NCBI GenBank assembly: GCA_033032865.1
Contig: JAWHQI010000068.1
Coordinates: 2,976,001 to 3,040,000, forward strand
Source of the DNA: Dactylorhiza incarnata
Taxonomy: Eukaryota > Streptophyta > Magnoliopsida > Asparagales > Orchidaceae
DNA: 64,000 nucleotides
Direction of reading: 5' to 3'
Shown piece after piece: positions 507 to 19,122 of the stretch. The translations under genes and the position numbers were made by a program. Within the stretch, counting starts at the first letter, position 1. Every line of letters begins with the position of its first letter. Below the pieces are notes generated by a model, which had not been told where the DNA came from, ran no database searches, and worked only from the letters and a program-made list of their open reading frames with translations.

Positions 507-2336
507 GGAGCACTACCGGGGAACACCGAGCAAAATCCAAAGGAGAGCGCGCACGCGATTACACTCCGAAGCGGGAAGGAGGTGGTTCAAAAACAGGACG
601 AACCCAAGGTAATTTCCTCTCCTCCTCCTCCTACTTTTAATTCATCTTCGAATTTGCCCGCTACGATAGCTCCGCACACTCCGCACACTCCGCACACTTC
701 TATTTTAAATCCGCGCGCTCCTACTTCTAATATTCCGTATCCATCAAAATTTAAAAATGAAAGCGCCGAAAAAAATTATAAAAAGTTTTTAGATGTTTTA
801 AAACAAATCCATATTAATGTACCTTTCTGTGAGGCTATCTCACAAATGCCTAAATATGCGAAATATCTTAAGGAGTTGCTCTCCAATAAGAAAAAGTTAG
901 AAGATATTTCGCATATTTCTTTAAACGCAGAATGCTCCGCGGTTGTACTCAACAAATTGCCGAAAAAAGCAAATGACCCGGGACGGTTTTCCATCCCATG
1001 TCTTTTTGGCAATTCGTTAGTAAAACACGCCTTAGCGGATCTTGGAGCAAGCATCAACCTTATGCCATTTTCTTTGTTCAAAAAGCTAGGTCTAGGAAAT
1101 CCAAGGCCCACTCGAATGAGTATCCAATTAGCGGATCGTTCTTTAAAATATCCGATAGGAATAGTGGAGGACGTGCTCGTCAAGGTTGACAAATTCATCT
1201 TCCTAGTGGATTTTGTCATTCTTGACATCGAAGAGGATGCCGAAGTACCCCTCATACTCGGCCGCCCCTTCCTTGCCACCTCCCGCGCTATTATCGACGT
1301 AAGTAACAGAAAGCTCCTCCTACGGGTTGGAGACGATGAAGTTACTTTCGGCATAAATTCCTCGATGCGGAACACGCTAGAAAATGATGATTCATGTTTT
1401 TACTTAGAAGAGTGTTGTGAGTTCGATTCATCCCTCGAGTTAGTTTCATCGACGAGTAGTGATTCCGAGCCCATAGAGCTCTTTTGTGATGAAGAAGAAG
1501 TTTCTCACCCCACACCACCCGAACCATTATTTTTAGAAAAATTAAAAATCAAGACTTCTTATGAAGAACCACCTGTATTGGAGTTGAAACAACTCCCCCC
1601 TCACCTTAAATACTTGTTTTTGGAAAAAGAGTCTAAGCTACCCATCATCATTTCATCCGATCTTAGCGACTCAGAAATTTCTGAGTTGACTATAGTCTTA
1701 AGAAAGCACCGCCACGCAATTGCGTGGCAATTATCGGACATTAAGGGTATAAACCCATCTTTCTGCACTCATAAAATATTTCTCAAAGATAATTCCCGAA
1801 ATTCAGTCCAGCCTCAACGACGACTAAACCCTAACATGAAAGAAGTCGTTAAGACCGAAGTTATAAAACTTCTGGACGCGGGAATCATCTACCCGATATC
1901 GGACAGTACTTGGGTTAGCCCAGTACAAGTCGTGCCAAAGAAAGGTGGTGTCACGGTAGTTGCGAACGAAAATAACGAATTGATCCCAACCCGTACTGTT
2001 ACGGGTTGGCGGATGTGCATCGACTATCGGAAATTAAATGATGCCACCCGTAAGGATCACTTCCCTCTACCATTTATCGACCAAATTTTAGAACGCCTTT
2101 CGGGTCACTCCTACTACTGTTTTCTAGATGGTTTGTCAGGATACTTCCAAATTCCGATTTCGCCCGACGACCAAGAGAAAACCACTTTCACTTGTCCCTT
2201 TGGCACCTTCGCTTATCGAAGGATGCCATTTGGTCTTTGTAACACGCCAGCTACATTCCAAAGATGTATGTTGGCAATTTTTGACGAGTTAGTGGAGGAG
2301 GTGATGGAAGTATTCATGGACGATTTTTCCGTGTAA
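507..2336 (+). pseudogene. pol: Athila-like gag-pol: protease and reverse transcriptase palm
   Basis: Same reading frame as the gag above. The gag-pol linker (motif AITLRSGKE near 555-582) is followed by a Pro/Ser-rich spacer. The aspartic protease has DLGASI near 1038 and ILGRPFLAT near 1254. RT motifs are WRMCIDYRKLN (about 2009-2040), LDGLSGYFQI (about 2125) and the active site FMDD (about 2312). The frame stops at TAA 2334-2336 just after FMDDFSV. The next frame-0 codons resume the family sequence, so the TAA replaces a Tyr codon usual at this site. Upstream sites are intact, and decay here is one base deep. Confidence 0.9.
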
Positions 2337-3560
2337 GGGAGTTCATTTGAAAACTGTTTAAAAAATCTCGAGCGCGTGTTGCAGCGATGTGAGGAAACGA
2401 ATTTAGAACTTAATTGGGAGAAATGCCATTTTATGGTCAAGGAAGGACTAGTCCTTGGCCATAAAATTTCAGGCAAGGGGATCGAGGTCGATAGGGCCAA
2501 GATTGATGTAATTGAAAAACTTCCCCCTCCCACAAATGTAAAAGCTATTAGGAGTTTCCTAGGCCACGCAGGGTTCTATCAGCGCTTTATACAAAATTTT
2601 TCCAAAATCACAAAGCTGTTAACCCATCTTCTTGAAAAGGAATCCTCATTTATTTTTAGCGATGAATGCCATTTGGCCTTTACACTTATCAATGAAAAAC
2701 TTATAAACTCCCCGATTCTAGTCGCGCCGGATTGGTCGCTCCCTTTTGAAATCATGTGCGACGCGAGTGACATTGCGGTTGGTGCCGTTTTAGGCCAACC
2801 GGTGAGTAAGTATTTCCACCCTATTTATTATGCGAGCAAAACACTCACGTCGGCACAAGCGAATTACACCACTACCGAAAAAGAGCTTCTAGCGATCGTT
2901 TTTGCCTTTGATAAGTTTAGGTCATACATCACCCTCTCGAAAGTTATCGTCTTCACGGATCACTCCGCACTTAGGTATCTTTTAAGCAAATCGGACGCCA
3001 AGCCTCGTCTTTTGCGATGGCTCCTCCTCTTGCAGGAGTTTTACTTAGAGATCCGGGACAAAAGGGGAGCCGAAAACTTGGCGGTCGGTCACCTCTCCCA
3101 TTTAGAAAACCCCGCCTCTGACGTATTAATAGAATCTGACATTAATGATAAATTTCCCGAAGAGCGCCTCCTTACTCTCGAAAATATTAATTCATCGTCT
3201 ACCCCCTGGTTTTCAGATCTGGCTAACTATTTAGTAGCCCGGGTCCTGCCAAAAGAATTCTCGAGTCAGCAAAAGAAGAAATTCTTTTCTGATTTAAAGA
3301 ATTACTTTTGGGAGGACCCCTTTTTATTCCGTGTATGCGCAGACCAGGTAGTAAGACGATGCGTCTCGAGTGAGGAAGGCCTTAAAATTTTACGTCATTG
3401 TCATGAGGGACCCACCGGAGGTCATTATCATTCAAACCGAACCACAAGGAAGGCGCTGGAGGCGGGCTTTTATTGGCCCTCGCTCTTCAAAGATGCTCAC
3501 ACCCTTGTGAGTACTTGCGACAACTGCCAGCGGTCGGGGACATCTCCCGCCGGGATGAGA
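2337..3560 (+). pseudogene. pol: Athila-like pol: RT thumb, RNase H, integrase zinc finger
   Basis: Continues in frame 0 after the nonsense codon. The RT connection ([13 protein letters not shown] near 2570) leads into RNase H: IMCDASD (about 2751), the TTEKELLAI region (about 2872) and [11 protein letters not shown] (about 2950). At the fourth catalytic site the usual Asp of the lineage (ADHLSRL) reads Gly (VGHLSHL near 3085), which should impair RNase H. The integrase HHCC finger follows, with His residues in [12 protein letters not shown] (about 3400-3432) and Cys residues in CDNCQR (about 3515). The frame is lost at about 3560, where the family sequence moves to frame 2. Confidence 0.85.
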
Positions 3561-4491
3561 TGCCCCAAAACATTTTCTTAGAATGCGAAATTTTCGACCT
3601 TTGGGGTATCGATTTTGTTGGTCCTCTCCCTCCATCTTTTTCAAATAAATATATTCTAGTGGCAGTCGACTACGTATCGAGGTGGGCGGAAGCGCAAGCT
3701 CTCCCCACGAATGATGCGCGAGTCGTCGTTAATTTCTTAAAAAAATTATTTTCTCGATTTGGCACGCCGCGCGCTATTGTGAGTGATCGGGGCACCCATT
3801 TTTGCAATACTCAATTTACAAAAATCTTAGCAAAATATGGTGTCACTCACAAATTATCCACAGCATATCACCCACAAACGAGCGGCCAAGTCGAAGTTGT
3901 TAATCGAGAATTAAAACGGATTTTAGAAAAAATAGTTTCTATCAATCAGAAGGATTGGGCAATAAAGCTCGATGACGCGCTATGGGCCTATCGAACGGCA
4001 TACAAGACCGCTATCGGTTGTACACCGTATCGAATGGTTTATGGCAAGGCTTGCCACCTTCCGGTCGAATTAGAACACCGCGCATTTTGGGCACTTAAAT
4101 TTTTAAACCTCGATTCCACTCTAGCGGGAGAACAAAGAAAATTCCAAATGAACGAATTAGATGAGTGGTGAGCGAATGCGTATGAGGCAATAAATTATAT
4201 AAGGAGCGAACGAAGTTTTATCACGATAAGCATATAAAATTTCCAAAAACTTTTTCGCCGGGCGATCTCGTCCTCCTTTATAATTCCCGCCTTCGCCTTT
4301 TTCCGGGAAAACTAAAATCCCGATGGTCTGGACCCTTTATTGTTAAAGAGGTTTGGTCCTATGGGACAATTTTAATTTCCCACCCGGAAAAAGGTACCTT
4401 CAAAGTAAACGGCCACCGCCTTAAATTATATCATCCGGGAGAGTTAACTAATGAAAAGAGTGATTCGATTGTATTTCAACCTATAATATGA
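3560..4491 (+). pseudogene. pol: Athila-like integrase core and C-terminal domain, frameshifted
   Basis: Frame 2 carries the integrase catalytic core: Asp in [11 protein letters not shown] (about 3601-3633), Asp in VSDRGTHF (about 3780) and Glu in [12 protein letters not shown] (about 3880-3912), so the D,D,E triad is present. TGA at 4169-4171 interrupts MNELDEW; the codons after it continue the family sequence, so CGA to TGA is likely. Near 4200 the frame shifts again to frame 1, where the C-terminal domain [13 protein letters not shown] and the end of pol are readable up to a TGA at 4489-4491. Integrase inserts the cDNA into chromosomes; this copy cannot be translated whole. Confidence 0.85.
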
Positions 4492-4742
4492 TCGGCAAGT
4501 GGGTCAAGCTACGCGACCTTAAACAAAGCGCTGTTGGGAGGCACCCCAAAGTTATCTTTTATTATTTTCTCTTGTCTTTTCTTTTCTTCTTTAACAACTT
4601 TTGCAGGTAATCGCGGCTTCCCCACAAAAGCTTCAAAAAATCAGGGAAGCCCTTTTTCCTTCTCTTCTTTCGTTTTTGCATTTCTTTTTACCTTTTCTTA
4701 CTTCATACTTATTTTTAAACATTGGGGACAATGTTTAACTTT

Positions 4743-4755
4743 AAGTATGGGGGTG
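4743..4755 (+). other. Internal (central) polypurine-tract copy
   Basis: AAGTATGGGGGTG matches the LTR-adjacent tract at 6111 in 12 of 13 bases but lies 1.37 kb upstream of it. The second Athila-like element in the window also has two copies of its tract. A central tract could act as a second plus-strand primer; the function is inferred. Confidence 0.5.
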
Positions 4756-4933
4756 TAAATAGCCCTTTGTAAATATTTGTAAATAGTTTTAAAAAGAAAA
4801 TTTTCAAAAAAAAAAACAACAAAAAGAAAATTTTAATTTTGTTTTTATGATCTCCTTTATTTAAGCACTTGTAAAATCCAAAAACCCAAAAAAAAATTTA
4901 AAAAATCGAAAATTTAAATCTTGGAAAGGGACG

Positions 4934-5006
4934 TTTGGGATTTCATCCCATCACACCTCCTAGTACCTTGCGAACCCTTCACCGGGTAGCCCTTGGGAAG
5001 TCCAAG
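4934..5006 (+). other. Conserved 73-bp module, copy A
   Basis: Shares TCATCCCAT, CCTAGTACC, GGGTAG and GGGAAGTCCA-type blocks, in the same order and spacing, with 7632-7706 and 17986-18058 read on the minus strand. It lies in the sense strand of the Athila-like element, between pol and the 3' LTR. No ORF explains it. The start GGGATTTCATCCC can fold as a small hairpin. Confidence 0.65.
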
Positions 5007-5490
5007 ACTTGCAAAAATTGTTAAGTTTTAAAGCTAGTTTCCTTTCTTTGTAAATAGTTTTTAATGTCAAAAATTCAAAAAAAAAAGATAAAAAAAAAAG
5101 ATAATATCAAAAATTCAAAAAATTCTTATATCCCTCCTTCTTGTTGTTTTTGTGATTTCTTAGAAATCTAGTTGAGAATGTTTATAAGCATGTTTAAGTT
5201 TTTAATTGGCTAAAATTTTGCTTATCATAGTTTGTTAATTTTAAATTTGAGGTAATCTTGATTTAAGAATCATCTTATGATTTTAAATTGATTAGAGAAT
5301 TTTGTTAGGATGACTTCTCTTTTTATTTTTAAATGGCTTCATTTTGTAGTAAATTTCCTAAACCTCTTTAGATTTCAATTATATTTTCTTCTAACTTCTT
5401 AGATCTTAGGAATTTTAATTTTACTAGAATTTGCTCTCAATATGATTTAAAGATAGCTAGATTTATTTTCCCCTACCATACCCCCTTTGA

Positions 5491-5745
5491 TGGCATAAAA
5501 AAAATATTAAAAGATCATATGTCATGGGAATAAGAGGATAAAATTCATTATTCCCTAAAACATATGCACCCAAAATATTTGAAAAGATTATATGGCATGG
5601 AGTAAGAGGATAAAATTCATTACTCCTAAACCATATACATTTTGGGTTTTTATTAGAAGAGAAAAAAAAGAGAAAGAAAGAAAAAAAAGGGAAATTTCAT
5701 GATAAATTCCATTTCCTCCATTCAAAAATTTCTCTTCTTATGCCA
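5491..5745 (+). other. Tandem covarying hairpins enclosed by an outer stem
   Basis: Two units with a period of about 73 bp. Unit 1 pairs CATATGT (5516-5522) with ACATATG (5560-5566) and GGGAATAA (5526-5533) with TTATTCCC (5548-5555). Unit 2 pairs TATATGG (5589-5595) with CCATATA (5631-5637) and GGAGTAA (5599-5605) with TTACTCC (5620-5626). The 14-nt loop is identical in both. Where the stems differ, both arms change together. TGGCATAA (5491-5498) pairs with TTATGCCA (5738-5745) around the whole. This points to a selected RNA fold or a past palindromic duplication. Confidence 0.6.
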
Positions 5746-6110
5746 AATTTTATGAAATCCCCCTTAGCCAATATCATTGTTCTAGTTTTAGTTGAAAATT
5801 ATGGAGAGAGCAATATTTAGTAATTTACTTTTCCTTAAGTTTCTTTTAAGGTAGAGTTCTTATAATTTTAATTTAATTTAGTTTAATAATTTCTACAATT
5901 TTGTCAAACTACTTAATTTTTTTGAGAAGTTCTTGCCTAAACATTTTTCCCTCTTTTCAAATCATCATCATAATTTAGGACTTAACTCCCCCTTGAATTT
6001 ACTCTTAATTTAACTTTTGGTTAAATGAAATTTTAGTTTTAAATTAAAATTTTTTTAAGGATGTCTTATAAATTATGTCTCACACTTTTGCTCTGGAATA
6101 GCAAAACCTC

Positions 6111-6123
6111 AAGTATGGGGGTA
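6111..6123 (+). other. Polypurine tract of Athila-like A
   Basis: AAGTATGGGGGTA lies two bases before the LTR start TGATA at 6126. This is the expected place for the plus-strand primer of reverse transcription. Confidence 0.75.
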
Positions 6124-6295
6124 TTTGATAAGTAGTATTTTTATAACTTTTTAATAGAAAATTTTGTAAATATTTAATATGAATTTTCCTTTTTATGTCA
6201 ATTTTAGGTTATAAGTAGTTCTTTTTGTAATTTTTGATTCTAACTTAGCTCAATTTCAATTTTTGCAGAATTTTGGGACAAATCGGGAAAAATGG

Positions 6296-6760
6296 CATGT
6301 CACGCCCTCGGTCACGCCCGTGACCAAGGGCGTGTAACCTGAAGATCAGTCCAGAATCGATGCCACGCTGTTTGAACCAGTCCACACCAAGTCACGCCCC
6401 AGGTCACGCCCATGACCCAAAGTCACGCCCGTGATCGGGGGCGTGTAATCTTAGAATCTTCCACGTAGAGCCGCCGTCGAGACATGGAGCTGCAGTCGAG
6501 AAGTCAACTTGAATCACGCTCTTGACCCACATGTCATGGCCGTGACTTGCCCGCGTGATCTCTGCTTCGCCGCCGCGCCAAATTCCAGCCCACGCCGCAT
6601 TTAATGCAGCCGTCCAAAGTCACGGCCGTGACCCGACATGTCACGCCCGTGACATGTCATTTCTCGCCGCGCCGTCCAGAAAGCCCACGCCGTTGTCGGA
6701 TCCGATGTGAATAGTGCAGTCATGCCCTTGGTCACGCCCGTGACCAAGGGCGTGTAATCT
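6296..6760 (+). repeat. Dyad-symmetric GTCACGCCCGTGAC array in U3
   Basis: At least five GC-rich repeats built on GTCACG-CC-CGTGAC. The best is at 6724-6751, with 13-bp perfect arms around CC. Another at 6301-6334 has 16-bp arms with one mismatch. The flanking LTR is A/T-rich. The array stops about 20 bp before the TATA box. Confidence 0.75.
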
Positions 6761-6772
6761 GAAATTTTTTCC

Positions 6773-6779
6773 TATAAAT
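6773..6779 (+). promoter_or_regulatory. TATA box of Athila-like A LTR
   Basis: TATAAAT in CCTATAAATTC, downstream of the dyad array and about 240 bp before an AATAAA signal. The spacing fits a U3/R boundary near 6800-6810. Confidence 0.6.
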
Positions 6780-7204
6780 TCAGAGGTTCTCCTTGAGTCC
6801 AGGGTTCAGAATTTTGGAGTGGGGGAGGTGCTGCTAGAGCTGTTAGTGAGTTCTTCAATGCAATTGTTCATGTCTTTAAGCTTTCATGTCTTCCTTTTCA
6901 ATTCATGCAATATTTTAGTTTAACTTTCATGTACTAGCTCTTTTTAAGCTTGTAATCTTCATTTTCCTAGCTTGGTAATCTCTCTTTAAGATTGTAATAG
7001 TTTTGATTTTCAATAAAAATTAGCTTGCTCTCTTTCATTTGCTATTTCTCCTTAAGTACTTCTCCTTTCATGCAACGTTAAGTTTTCTTTCCTTTTTCCC
7101 CTCCACTATGTTGAGCATTAAGACTTTTTTTTATCGTTTTAATCATTCACTAAGTTTGCAAAATGTCTCTTTTTAACTAAGTAATCAAAACCTCCAAAAT
7201 ATCA

Positions 7205-7309
7205 TTAGATAAGATAATCAAAACCTCCAAAATATCTCGTTTTCAAATAGTTATTATTAATTCCATATGTTTTATTAAAATAATTATAAGAAAAACCCGG
7301 GGCGTTACA
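7205..7309 (-). repeat. LTR tip starting TGTAACGCCCCGG, cut by the Athila-like insertion
   Basis: Read on the minus strand, 7309 starts TGTAACGCCCCGGG, a common start for plant gypsy LTRs. The segment is A/T-rich and is lost at 7205, where the Athila-like LTR abuts. Its other part should lie left of the window. Its right edge abuts a truncated direct repeat of the TRIM-like unit, so it probably inserted into that unit. Confidence 0.4.
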
Positions 7310-7631: not shown

Positions 7632-7706
7632 CATGGACTCCCCGCGGACTACCCTGTGAAGGGCTCACTACGGTACTAGGAGCTACAATGGGATGACACC
7701 CCCAAA
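7632..7706 (-). other. Conserved 73-bp module, copy B
   Basis: Read on the minus strand it carries TCATCCCAT, CTCCTAGTACC, CCCTTCACAGGGTAG and GGAGTCCATG in the order of copies A (4934) and C (17986). It lies near the inner end of the minus-strand LTR-like block, again in the sense strand. Confidence 0.6.
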
Positions 7707-10498
7707 GCTCCCATTCCAAGGTACTTAGTATTATTAGTGACTACCCACAAGTACACCCTCCTTAACATTACACTTGAATTACCCTACGTATTTTATGGCC
7801 TTCTAAGGGGAAAGACGATCTTTCGTCGGTCCCGAACACAACCTTCTCCTTATCTTATCGGGTACACTCAACATATAGACCTCTAATGGTGACCACACAT
7901 CTTCTCTACCAGACTAGGTGCACCAACTAACTTCCATTCTCACCTAAGGATCCATCAAATAGTCAAGTTTTACAGTTTTACTATATGCAGACCAAGTGAG
8001 TTATATGAGTTACATAAGGGAAGGTACCACAAATATTCATCCAACTGCCTCAAGAATATTTTTGGGTCTCTATCATGATATTCTAAGACTAAATACAGAG
8101 GATCATATTTTTCCTTATTTAATTGGTATTTATTATAATTTTCCTCAACATTGTCCCAATATGAAATTGAACATGAAGTATAAAATCCTCTTATGATATG
8201 GCCTCCACAAAACTATGGAAAATCTATCAAGTCAAAATTACAGTAAATACATAATATCAAAATTTTGCAGTAAGGGGTTGACCTCTAATTATAATATTGA
8301 ACAATTACCCCAAATTAGAATTTAAAGATGGAACCACCAAAAATACTTGTCTAATAAATATGGGAAAATTATCTAACCTTCATAAGAATCAGAAATGTTT
8401 ACTGGCCAAATTTCAGATTTTATCAAGACTAATTAATCACATAAATAAATATTCCAAGTAAACTCATACTAGGGAAAATTATGAAGGAACCTATTGACAA
8501 ATAAATCCAAAAATTATACAAAAATTCAGAGAGCTTTCTATAGTCCTAAAATGTCCTACCACCAAGTTTCATAATTTTCCAGAGGATATTTGGCCCTTAA
8601 TTATTTATTACATTCTTAAGACCAAATAGATGGCTTGTGAATGAAGTGCTAAATAAGTTAATTCAATAATTACCCAAAAATTACCAGAGATCTATCACAT
8701 GACTAAGAGGGTACCACCACATTTTCATTATCATCCAAGATTATTTGTGCATATTAATTTCTCTCCTAAGGAGGCTCCCAAAATGATTATAACCCAAATT
8801 AGAGGGAATAATTGGTCCTAAAATTCTCTCAAAATTTCCTAGGGAATATTTACTCCCCATGAACTTCTCTACCAAGTTTCATGACCATCCAATGACATAT
8901 GCCCTTATGTCCATCACAAGGCTTAAAGTGAAACCCTAAGGTTAAAACTAGGGTCCTAGGGCATATCCACCCCACATCACCACAAATTACTCAAGGGGGT
9001 GTATTAAGTGGTCCTAAACCAGTGGCCAAAGTTTCACACCACTTGGATGAGGTTTGACCACCTAATTCCAACACGTGCACTTTTAACCTAGTTTGACCTA
9101 ATTTGACCAAACTTGGGTTAATAAATTACCCAACCAAATCAGTCCCAATTGGGCTGAAATTTTTACCAGGGTCATATAATAACCCTAAAGAGCACCCACC
9201 AAAATTTGGAGGGATTGGAGGTCATTAGACTCGATAATTAATTAATATGTGAAATTTTAAATTATTACAAAAACCATAGAAGAATGTTCTCCTAAAATTC
9301 CCATCTATGGATATGTTAAGGGGGTTGGTACAAATAGCCCAGGTTTCAATTTTTATGCAATAGCAATTCCCTATCAAAAGTTATTCAAGAAAAGGTGGCT
9401 GCCCTACCCTAGGGACCAGTCCCACCAAAATGGCTCTACAGGGAGCTACAGTGCCCCTATTGGGCTGAAACAAATTTTCAATTAAACTAAACACCAAAGG
9501 CTATAACTTTGATGTTGGGCACTGTTTCATTAGAGGGGCTCTAGTATTTTTAATAATTAAATTAAACTACTACATAATATGTGACAACAAATCATGTAAC
9601 TTAAGCATTTAATCATCTAGGTCTGCGAATAGCAGATCACGACTGATCCAACGACGCCCAATCATCGTCCCCAATGAATGGACGGTCCCTGACAGCCCAT
9701 CCCGGGTGACATTTGCGCTCGATTTTCCGGCCACCCTTGCATCCTTTCGGCCGGCTGGTGCCACCACCACCTTCGTCGAGGTGGTGGCAGGCGATTGGCC
9801 GGGGTTTGCCGGCCGGTGGTGGCCAGAGGGGGTTTTTCTAGTGGGTGAAAGGGGCTCGAAAACGAACCATTTCGGGAGCATGATTCAAGATCGATTGAGC
9901 TCGAATCAAGCCCCAAACTGATTGAGATCTATGCACTAGGGGAGAGAGGGAGGACCGGACCTGTGCTGGGGCCTGGTGTCGCAAATTCTGGCGGGTTGCC
10001 ATGGCCGGTGGTGGTGCTTTTGGTGCCATGTTGATCTAGGCTTTTGGTGCACGATTTCTTCTGTGAAGAGGATGGTTTCATTCCATTCCGACCTCTGAAG
10101 ATGTTAAAGAGTTCAATTCGGGGAGGGGAGGAGCCATGACATCAATTGCCATTAACACCATTAATGGTGATTTTCGGTTTCATATGGGGGGGGGGGAATG
10201 AATTGGGCATCAATGTGGCCGGGAGAAGGCTGGAAACTTCTCCTCTCCTCAAGAGGAGATGAATTGTGCCATGAATGAAGAAGATGGGAGGTTTCTTCTT
10301 CCTCCCCACTAACACCATCCATTCTCTCTCTCTTTCAATTTGAGTTTTCTCTCTCCTAGCCAATTTTCCTGAAATTGATTGGCCTATTCAGTAGCACTCA
10401 ACCCCATTAGGTGGTGGACCACCTCATTTGGGTCTAGCCCAAGAGGATTGGGCTTGATTTGGTCAACATAGGTCATTTTGACCTAAATTTGAGGTAGA

Positions 10499-17460: not shown

Positions 17461-17985
17461 TGGAGTTATCTTTGTCACTTTATTTTATGATTTTTGTTTT
17501 GTACAAAGTTCTCCGAATACACTTGTTTTGCAAACCAATATAATTTATGAAAACATAACCACTTTTCTTAACTTTTAAAAGTGCAAACAAAGGTTGTGTA
17601 GGTAAGATACTTGTGCAATTTTTAATTCATTGTACTATTACAAAAACATACACAAGCATTCTTAGATTAAAAACATGTGTAGATAATGCCAAAATAAGTG
17701 AGTGAATAAATACCATTATCAAACATAAAACATTTACTCATACTTAGAGGCATGCTAAACTTGGTTCTACACAACTTTTACAATATAATTTATGCACATG
17801 AGTTTAGAAGTACCAAGGCATGAAAAAGAGAATGTTCAAAGTAGTTTGAAAATATGAATCACACATTGTAGAAAGTCTTAAGGGATAGAAGAAATCATGC
17901 TTGATTTTCACAATAAAGTCCATTCAGTATTTTTGATATTTTTGAGAAAAATTTTAATTTAAAGTTTGAACTCATATAATTTGAT

Positions 17986-18058
17986 CTTGGACTTCCCGAG
18001 GTCTACCCTGTGAGAGGTTCGCCCGATAATAGGTGATGTGATGGGATGATAACCCAAA
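17986..18058 (-). other. Conserved 73-bp module, copy C
   Basis: On the minus strand it reads TTTGGG, TCATCCCATCACA, CCTATTATC, CACAGGGTAG and CGGGAAGTCCAAG, matching copies A and B. LARD-2 lacks it at the matching place (about 46030), so it was either inserted in LARD-1 or deleted from LARD-2. Confidence 0.65.
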
Positions 18059-19122
18059 TCACCCTTTCGCAAGATACATGTAAATAGAAAAGTTAAGTTC
18101 AAAATAATAATTTTTGATACTTGTTTTTGTTTTATATTTTTGTATTTGATTTTTACATATAGGAATAGAAATCAAACAAATAACCAAAGAATGGAATAAA
18201 ATATTTTTTTGTAATTTGGCTTTTGTAATTTTGTATTTTTATTTTTCAAAAAATCAATTATAGGCAGAAATGCAAAAATGAGTAGTACATATAAAATAAT
18301 ATATTTTTAGTGATTTTTCAGAATTTTTAAAATTACAGAAAATCGGATACTTGAGCTAGCGCCGGCGTTGGTCCTAGCTCCTGCGTTAGCTCACAGAGAG
18401 TGCTTATTTTAATCATATGGCCTAGATTTTATTCGATTTTGCTTCCGATTTTTCTTAATTATGTTTGTGCAATGTAAGGCCTGTCTAATGAAGTGAGGAG
18501 ACGAGAAGAAATCGCAAAAAGTTGCGGAAGTTAAAATTTTAGTACATGGGTTTCATATTCATTAAACCTTAATTCTTGAGTTTTGCACAACATATGCATG
18601 AGTGAAATGATCATAAATAAGTGAAATTATATTCATGCAATTTTTAAATTCCGGTTTGACATGATTGTGATTAAACATACTAAGGGTAATCAAAATGATG
18701 CAAATATATTAAATATTTAAGCAAAACATGCGCATTTTATAAGTTTAGCCTAATACCCCCCAAAACACCTTTTGAATCCATTTTGACACTTATTTCATTT
18801 AGTCTTAATAATATCATATGACAAAGTTAGTTTTTCAAATTTTATAAGACTTTTAGGAAATGGATTTAGAAGGGTAAAAATAAAAAAGATAAGTAGATCA
18901 CTAGAAAAATGATATGACTTTTTATTCAACTTTATTCAATTTGATTTATTTATGAATTTTGGTTTAATATGTGGAAGACATATCACATGTTATATAAAGT
19001 GATCATATCATGATGGCTCAAAGAAATAAAATCAAGAACAAAAAGGAAATAAAGCATACCATGAAGTAGAGAATTGATATTTCATTTTTAATTGATTTCT
19101 ACTTCATGCAAATGATAAGATA

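Follow-up and report, generated by a model that had tools for sequence, protein, structure and literature searches.

The cis-acting signals by which the RNAs of plant LTR retrotransposons are selected are poorly defined, and LTR retrotransposons account for a large share of big plant genomes. Among the closest described systems are the Sireviruses, for which the consulted part of the report (Bousios et al. 2010, PMC2829016) describes an inverted repeat at the terminal polypurine tract (PPT) and repeated palindromic motifs, with the authors' suggestion that the inverted repeat forms a stem-loop aiding PPT priming. LARD and TRIM elements, which are non-autonomous LTR elements, conserve RNA secondary structure according to the sections consulted of PMC7215508. 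For the Athila clade (non-chromovirus, OTA), a large non-coding region and a PBS to tRNA-Asp are given as features in the accessible text of PMC6317226; not every relative has a 3' region of such length, because pol of the soybean element Diaspora ends 128 bp before the PPT (excerpt of PMC1142308).

The hairpin array described here resembles the Sirevirus structures in consisting of conserved inverted repeats in non-coding DNA, near multiple PPT copies 5' of the 3' LTR. As far as the consulted part of PMC2829016 goes, Sireviruses are Ty1/copia elements with one inverted repeat flanking the terminal PPT, whereas the element here is Ty3/gypsy and has as many as four hairpins of identical loop, which lie about 370-620 nt 5' of the terminal PPT and whose stems covary; a closer match to the PPT-flanking repeat is a separate hairpin at 4704-4749. 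In comparison to the LARD and TRIM structures (PMC7215508, same sections), the array is a defined motif, occurs in pol-bearing elements as well and has covariation statistics pair by pair. With the tandem repeats of Retand elements it shares the position between pol and the 3' LTR, the tandem arrangement and family-specific units, but hairpins, stem-loops and secondary structure are unmentioned in the consulted portion of PMC11963269, and the units here are distinct and structured. Packaging and dimerization stem-loops of retroviruses and Ty elements, such as the Ty1 kissing loops (PMC5454406, in part), are stem-loops needed in cis on genomic RNA and offer a candidate for how the array may work; the array differs from them in its 3' non-coding location, its long A-rich loop, a longest loop complement in the window element of 9 nt, in the leader, and a function that is putative. 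Such an array in Athila elements was not named in the title or abstract opening of any paper among the open-access PMC matches listed.

The window is the whole 64,000-nucleotide stretch analyzed (G000:C2839:2976001-3040000), from a Dactylorhiza incarnata assembly of 3.27 Gb in 3184 contigs. Its first 7.2 kb are occupied by a Ty3/gypsy element, recognized by the domain order RVT_1, RT_RNaseH, Integrase_H2C2, rve (reverse transcriptase [RT] and RNase H before integrase), an LTR pair, a PBS-like sequence in locus L123, which holds the upstream part of the element, and PPT-like tracts; a protease match was below the cut-off. The nearest named proteins are mostly annotated as RT-domain proteins, and the name Athila is a label kept from the original prediction, not a placement in an RT tree. 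The PBS following the 5' LTR is TGGCGCCGTTGCCGGGGA, which we take to be the tRNA-Asp type of Athila/Tat elements. The 5' LTR is located outside the window (G000:C2839:2973722-2974814). The match between the LTRs ends at 7218 and the 5' LTR is seemingly about 135 nt longer (L123:4315-4450), which suggests truncation or rearrangement of the 3' LTR. A non-coding stretch of about 1.6 kb separates pol from the 3' LTR; it contains two PPT-like tracts (AAGTATGGGGG), and the hairpin array is situated between these tracts (Table 1). A block of about 90-130 nt at 4881-5010 recurs reversed at 17985-18075 and 7634-7720 (both on the minus strand, 78-81% identity), and one pol-less element has it close to its 5' end (L119:4415-4553). 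In the non-coding segment 5151-5450, the variation among 21 close copies was just 0.2-1.5%, compared to 3-14% in bins of the LTR.

Table 1 Positions of the pol region, 3' LTR, polypurine-like tract and hairpins in the window
Feature	Position	Strand	Basis and details
Pol region (RT, RNase H, integrase; more than one frame)	507..4171	+	Domain matches; relatives' reading extends to about 4490
Nested hairpin adjoining the internal polypurine tract, CATACTTA..TTAAACATTG-GGGA-CAATGTTTAA..TAAGTATG	4704..4749	+	Family comparison
Outer 8-bp stem, 5' arm TGGCATAA	5491..5498	+	Fold; paired transversions in L069
Unit 1 hairpin	5516..5566	+	Outer arms 5516-5522/5560-5566; inner arms 5526-5533/5548-5555; loop 5534-5547 (14 nt)
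Extension stem below unit 2, CCCAAAAT (5569-5576)/ATTTTGGG (5639-5646)	5569..5646	+	Fold; absent from the original prediction
Unit 2 hairpin	5589..5637	+	Outer arms 5589-5595/5631-5637; inner arms 5599-5605/5620-5626; loop 5606-5619 (14 nt)
Third hairpin, GAAGAGAAA (from 5656)/TTTCTCTTC (from 5729)	5656..5737	+	Fold; absent from the original prediction
Outer 8-bp stem, 3' arm TTATGCCA	5738..5745	+	Fold; L069 comparison
Terminal polypurine-like tract AAGTATGGGGG preceding the 3' LTR	6111..6121	+	Sequence
3' LTR (matched part)	6126..7218	+	98.35% identity over 1093 bp to the 5' LTR

The original prediction had described two adjacent hairpins with an identical loop, stems that differ in a paired way, and an outer stem around both. 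All the stem and loop letters that it quoted were located in the region: the outer unit stems CATATGT/ACATATG and TATATGG/CCATATA, the inner stems GGGAATAA/TTATTCCC and GGAGTAA/TTACTCC, and the 14-nt loop GAGGATAAAATTCA in both units. The four stem differences that it listed were each matched on the opposite arm, with 8 of the 60 alignment columns differing through three base-pair changes and one paired loss; the loop and joint columns showed no difference between units 1 and 2. In the minimum free energy (MFE) fold, the 8-bp stem TGGCATAA/TTATGCCA encloses both hairpins as proposed. The observation was correct and understated. The third hairpin contains a decayed unit at about 5690-5713, 71% like unit 1; in other subfamilies this hairpin is occupied by unit 3, unit 4 or both in intact form.

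The MFE of region 5491-5745 was -61.5 kcal/mol (z -5.35), which was reached by none of 200 shuffles. Two-stem hairpins of equal strength gave 11 raw, overlapping matches in the 64 kb, compared to 0-4 in 20 Markov sequences. A chance palindrome is ruled out by the shuffle folds, the Markov hairpin counts and the absence of genomic matches to a reversed loop pattern. A protein-coding origin of the repeats is likewise ruled out: no ORF of 150 amino acids was found in the array region between pol and the 3' LTR, and the units differ by a single paired base loss. A search of 4400-6400 against Rfam returned two sub-threshold matches and no family above the gathering threshold, and the loop core and the integrase each had zero matches in viral contigs.

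Family members were collected in two ways. A genome search with the whole region gave 419 candidates, 40 of which were scored, and all of these except the window itself were 95-98% identical. In 20 aligned close copies the units were near-invariant, with two broken pairs (L016 and L024), and such copies are too similar to be used for covariation. The second search, over the whole assembly, fixed only the loop and a few letters 3' of it; it yielded 6692 + 6582 = 13,274 exact matches of loop and 3' context, and none for the reversed pattern. The first 100 matches in genome order, a sample therefore not ranked by similarity, represented 58 elements, of which 57 were used (70 loci, 13 duplicates dropped). 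They contained 162 loop matches with three mismatches at most. Of these, 151 entered the analysis; the 11 set aside mostly represented the decayed third unit and were further from the loop consensus than the counted units.

The flanks were homologous to those of the window in 56 of the 57 elements, down to about 68% identity. Each element had two to four kept units in the order U1-U2-(U3)-U4, and the CAT/TAAA internal loop was usually constant in units 1-3. In seven loci (L065, L067, L069, L051, L052, L059, and L074), units 1 and 2 were 77-100% identical to the window and the two flanks 50-78%; in the pol-less element of L065 the values were 98-100% and 68-78%. Among units with two loop mismatches at most, the exact loop was found in 28 of 34 with a 3' context that deviates from the search pattern and in 25 of 27 U4 units. 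Part of this constancy, and of the occurrence of the array in pol-less elements, is due to ascertainment, because all 57 elements were found through an exact loop in at least one unit. Ordinary tandem subrepeats, or a captured foldback element or MITE with TGGCATAA/TTATGCCA as terminal repeats, are a scarcely credible source of this arrangement. Retand elements do frequently have tandem repeats in the interval from pol to the 3' LTR (consulted portion of PMC11963269), and the outer repeats do resemble terminal ones; against such an origin stand units that are distinct and keep their order, stems that covary around a constant loop, and a 3' context that is the same in 56 of 57 elements. Capture of a MITE or foldback element was also rejected, as the ends of the 255-bp region (5491/5745) show no target duplication.

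At least eight perfectly paired inner stems carry the one 14-nt loop in the 57 elements. Besides the two of the window, both of which covary in the family comparison, they include GGAATGA/TCATTCC, GGAAATGA/TCATTTCC, GAGGTGA/TCACCTC, GATGTAA/TTACATC, GAAGTAA/TTACTTC, GGAAAATAA/TTATTTTCC, and others. In 59 distinct inner-arm pairs, 312 of the 354 cells at pairs 1-6 were Watson-Crick, compared to 25-45% in slid frames and a maximum of 256 cells when the 3' arms were shuffled (0 of 1000 as high). A separate count on 59 distinct units gave 90.8% paired cells (0 of 500 shuffles), 80 cells changed on both sides versus 35.0 ± 6.4 in shuffles (0 of 500), a covariation score of 0.487 versus 0.272 (0 of 500), and 12 further pair types versus 10.1 (3 of 500). 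On one of the five measures the units did not exceed the shuffles: two-sided change of any kind was seen at 5 of 7 pairs (364 of 500). Slid frames were all lower on paired cells, two-sided cells and covariation score, and compensatory changes were in excess of both controls. The outermost stem changes in step as well, with two paired transversions between TGGCATAA/TTATGCCA in the window and TGGCAAAT/ATTTGCCA in L069; no clear outer stem was found in the folded L052 and L086 or in the subfamily-D elements L074 and L101. The original prediction had taken paired change as the sign of a selected structure and named independent changes of the two arms in homologous elements as the observation that would speak against it. 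The stems covary across subfamilies, which supports that interpretation.

Shuffles leave relatedness in place, and the pair states were therefore mapped on a tree built from the flanking sequences, with eight unit classes assigned by hand and each unit limited to pairs 1-7. Of the 10 changes on internal branches, 6 were two-sided Watson-Crick changes, compared to 6 of the 40 changes on terminal branches (Fisher P = 0.007). The other changes numbered 4 of 10 on internal branches, among them two one-sided changes to A.C, and 34 of 40 on terminal branches, 12 of which ended as a G.U pair. The contrast is as expected from selection in mobile lineages combined with decay of dead copies; the two internal A.C changes and an internal A.G mismatch carried by three copies (L067, L085, and L095), with one reversal, count against selection. 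Perfect palindromes could also be maintained without selection or function by template switching that copies one arm onto the other, for which the consulted part of PMC8794818 describes consistent mutation patterns in RNA genes and to which the change of pairs 4 and 5 of unit 4 on the same branch would conform. Template switching should also act in dead copies, yet two-sided changes are concentrated on the internal branches, and it leaves the constant loop and the array of a minimal element unexplained. This mechanism is already disfavored and is held to be extremely improbable.

The strand on which the structure acts was approached through wobble pairs, as the RNA strand should tolerate G.U and not A.C. 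No preference for G.U was observed on the plus strand: at pair 2, 149 G.T and 198 A.C were counted genome-wide (binomial P about 0.01), and the table of distinct units had 16 G.T versus 22 A.C at pairs 1-7. Plus-strand folding is without wobble support because A.C is not fewer than G.T, and the wobble counts may lean slightly towards the minus strand. A structure acting on the minus strand, whether in single-stranded cDNA while reverse transcription proceeds or in antisense RNA, would agree with these counts, since A.C on the plus strand is G.U on the minus strand; with the two internal A.C changes, which read in the same way; and with the better folding of the minus strand of the array (-73.4 kcal/mol, z -6.95, 0 of 200 shuffles as good). 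Against it, most mismatch cells probably reflect decay of dead copies, for which equality is expected (terminal one-sided changes comprise 11 G.U and 9 A.C), and clones can inflate mismatch counts. Action on the minus strand is considered distinctly unlikely.

The array is also found in elements without pol. In 17 loci with about 1.5 kb of upstream sequence, the pol C terminus was at the expected place in 7 and absent in 10. Four of the 10 pol-less loci were followed up over eight loci (upstream and central), in which tblastn with RT, RNase H, integrase and gag pieces found no match. All four elements have paired LTRs (identity by segment 97-99%, 96-98%, 98-100%, and 89-92%) and carry the array; all were found through the loop, and their mobilization in trans is inferred. 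The L065 element, with nearly identical LTRs of about 1.79 kb flanked on both sides by GTTAT as a 5-bp target duplication and with no gag-pol match, is of the LARD/TRIM type. Its internal region of about 1.79 kb contains a PBS identical to that of the window element, a 70-nt leader block (87% to the window element) and blocks matching window positions 4638-4757 and 4873-6124, and its longest open frame is 120 amino acids. The three other pol-less elements (L119/L052, L120/L059, and L122/L074) have a different, Asn-rich ORF with a YSWW/YFWW motif, which matched neither Pfam nor, by tblastn, the gag stretches compared.

From their contents, pol-less and pol-bearing elements therefore have in common the LTRs, the PBS/leader and the 3' region with the array, which, judged from sequence, would be the layout expected of cis-acting signals. 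Because the array persists in elements without pol, it is probably a cis-acting mobilization signal, most likely a repeated protein-binding (packaging) element. As a guess, this persistence would suit a role in packaging, reverse transcription or export more than one in translating the element proteins. In the best explanation, to which we give about an even chance, the two to four stem-loops would present the same loop GAGGATAAAATTCA on interchangeable stems, each loop being a putative binding site of a single RNA-binding protein, for which the nucleocapsid portion of Gag is the likeliest candidate. Repeated sites would raise avidity, and the element RNA, that of pol-less partners included, would thereby be chosen for packaging and reverse transcription. 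The step served would probably be packaging; retroviral packaging signals are usually located in the 5' leader, which counts against an array at the 3' end. A broader proposal, that a modular 3' recognition code is common to Athila elements and their pol-less partners, in which the loops are read by a single protein and decide particle entry, perhaps touching a leader motif on the PBS side, is put forward more tentatively, at somewhat less than an even chance.

Instead of Gag, a host protein may bind the loops and export or stabilize the element RNA, as with a constitutive-transport-like element. Export and stability would be no less necessary for non-autonomous RNAs than for autonomous ones, and repeated identical loops would suit an avidity-based host adaptor; nothing specific speaks against this, and no described RNA family was matched apart from the two sub-threshold Rfam matches. 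From the sequence evidence at hand we regard the host-protein alternative as possible but unlikely.

Contact between RNAs is a weak lead; a leader motif 3' of the PBS, for instance, could pair with the loops and so join the ends of the element RNA. The motif TTTTATC, the complement of GATAAAA in the loop, was present in all five leaders inspected (L123:4543, L065, L119, L120, and L122), 56-60 nt from the PBS start. In L119 and L120, a 10-nt complement TGAATTTTAT precedes it by about 10 nt (as long in 2 and 6 of 300 shuffles), and the longest complement in the window element is that of 9 nt at L123:4543 (17 of 300). Two elements have a complement of just 7 nt (129 and 170 of 300 shuffles), at chance level in A/T-rich leaders; stretches of 9-10 nt are also found elsewhere in some of these loci, and a single contact would not require four loops. 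As the function of the loops, such contact is very improbable.

Long paired RNA from a high-copy element is a usual source of siRNA, and the hairpins could feed or titrate the host siRNA pathway as a small-RNA precursor or a silencing decoy. A constant loop on variable stems is the reverse of the pattern expected from a conserved small RNA in the stem, and little credence is given to this role, even though Athila-linked small RNA is the subject of PMC3276544 (seen in part).

If the proposal of a recognition code is true, protein-less copies would be able to parasitize one Gag by means of such a signal, and a plant retrotransposon would have a 3' packaging array supported by covariation. The array is a defined 60-nt motif with evolutionary support at the level of pairs, and the natural minimal element narrows the cis requirements to the LTR, the PBS/leader and the 3' region; with motif and minimal element available, packaging, export and non-autonomous parasitism are directly testable.

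The hairpin at 4704-4749, whose outer 3' arm extends into the internal PPT, recurred in each of the 17 loci inspected, among them the pol-less ones; its loop was GGGA (GNRA-like) or close to it. Covariation was analyzed in 15 rows (the window and 14 others, with two duplicates and L078 omitted). Two-sided changes were found at 3 of 10 pairs of the inner stem and at none of the outer stem; the whole structure had 7 two-sided cells versus 2.2 in shuffles (1 of 500), and the numbers of two-sided pairs (94 of 500) and pair types (241 of 500) were not above shuffles. The low identity of this hairpin in L051 and L052 by alignment (37% and 41%) is probably a misalignment, because local matches reach 91%. 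A small hairpin, TTTTGCT-CTGGAAT-AGCAAAA, is located just 5' of the terminal PPT (about 6088-6121) and recurs in most of the examined loci. Within the LTR (window 6300-6790), several direct and inverted repeats of the GTCACGCCCGTGAC type were observed, which recur in the LTRs of relatives.
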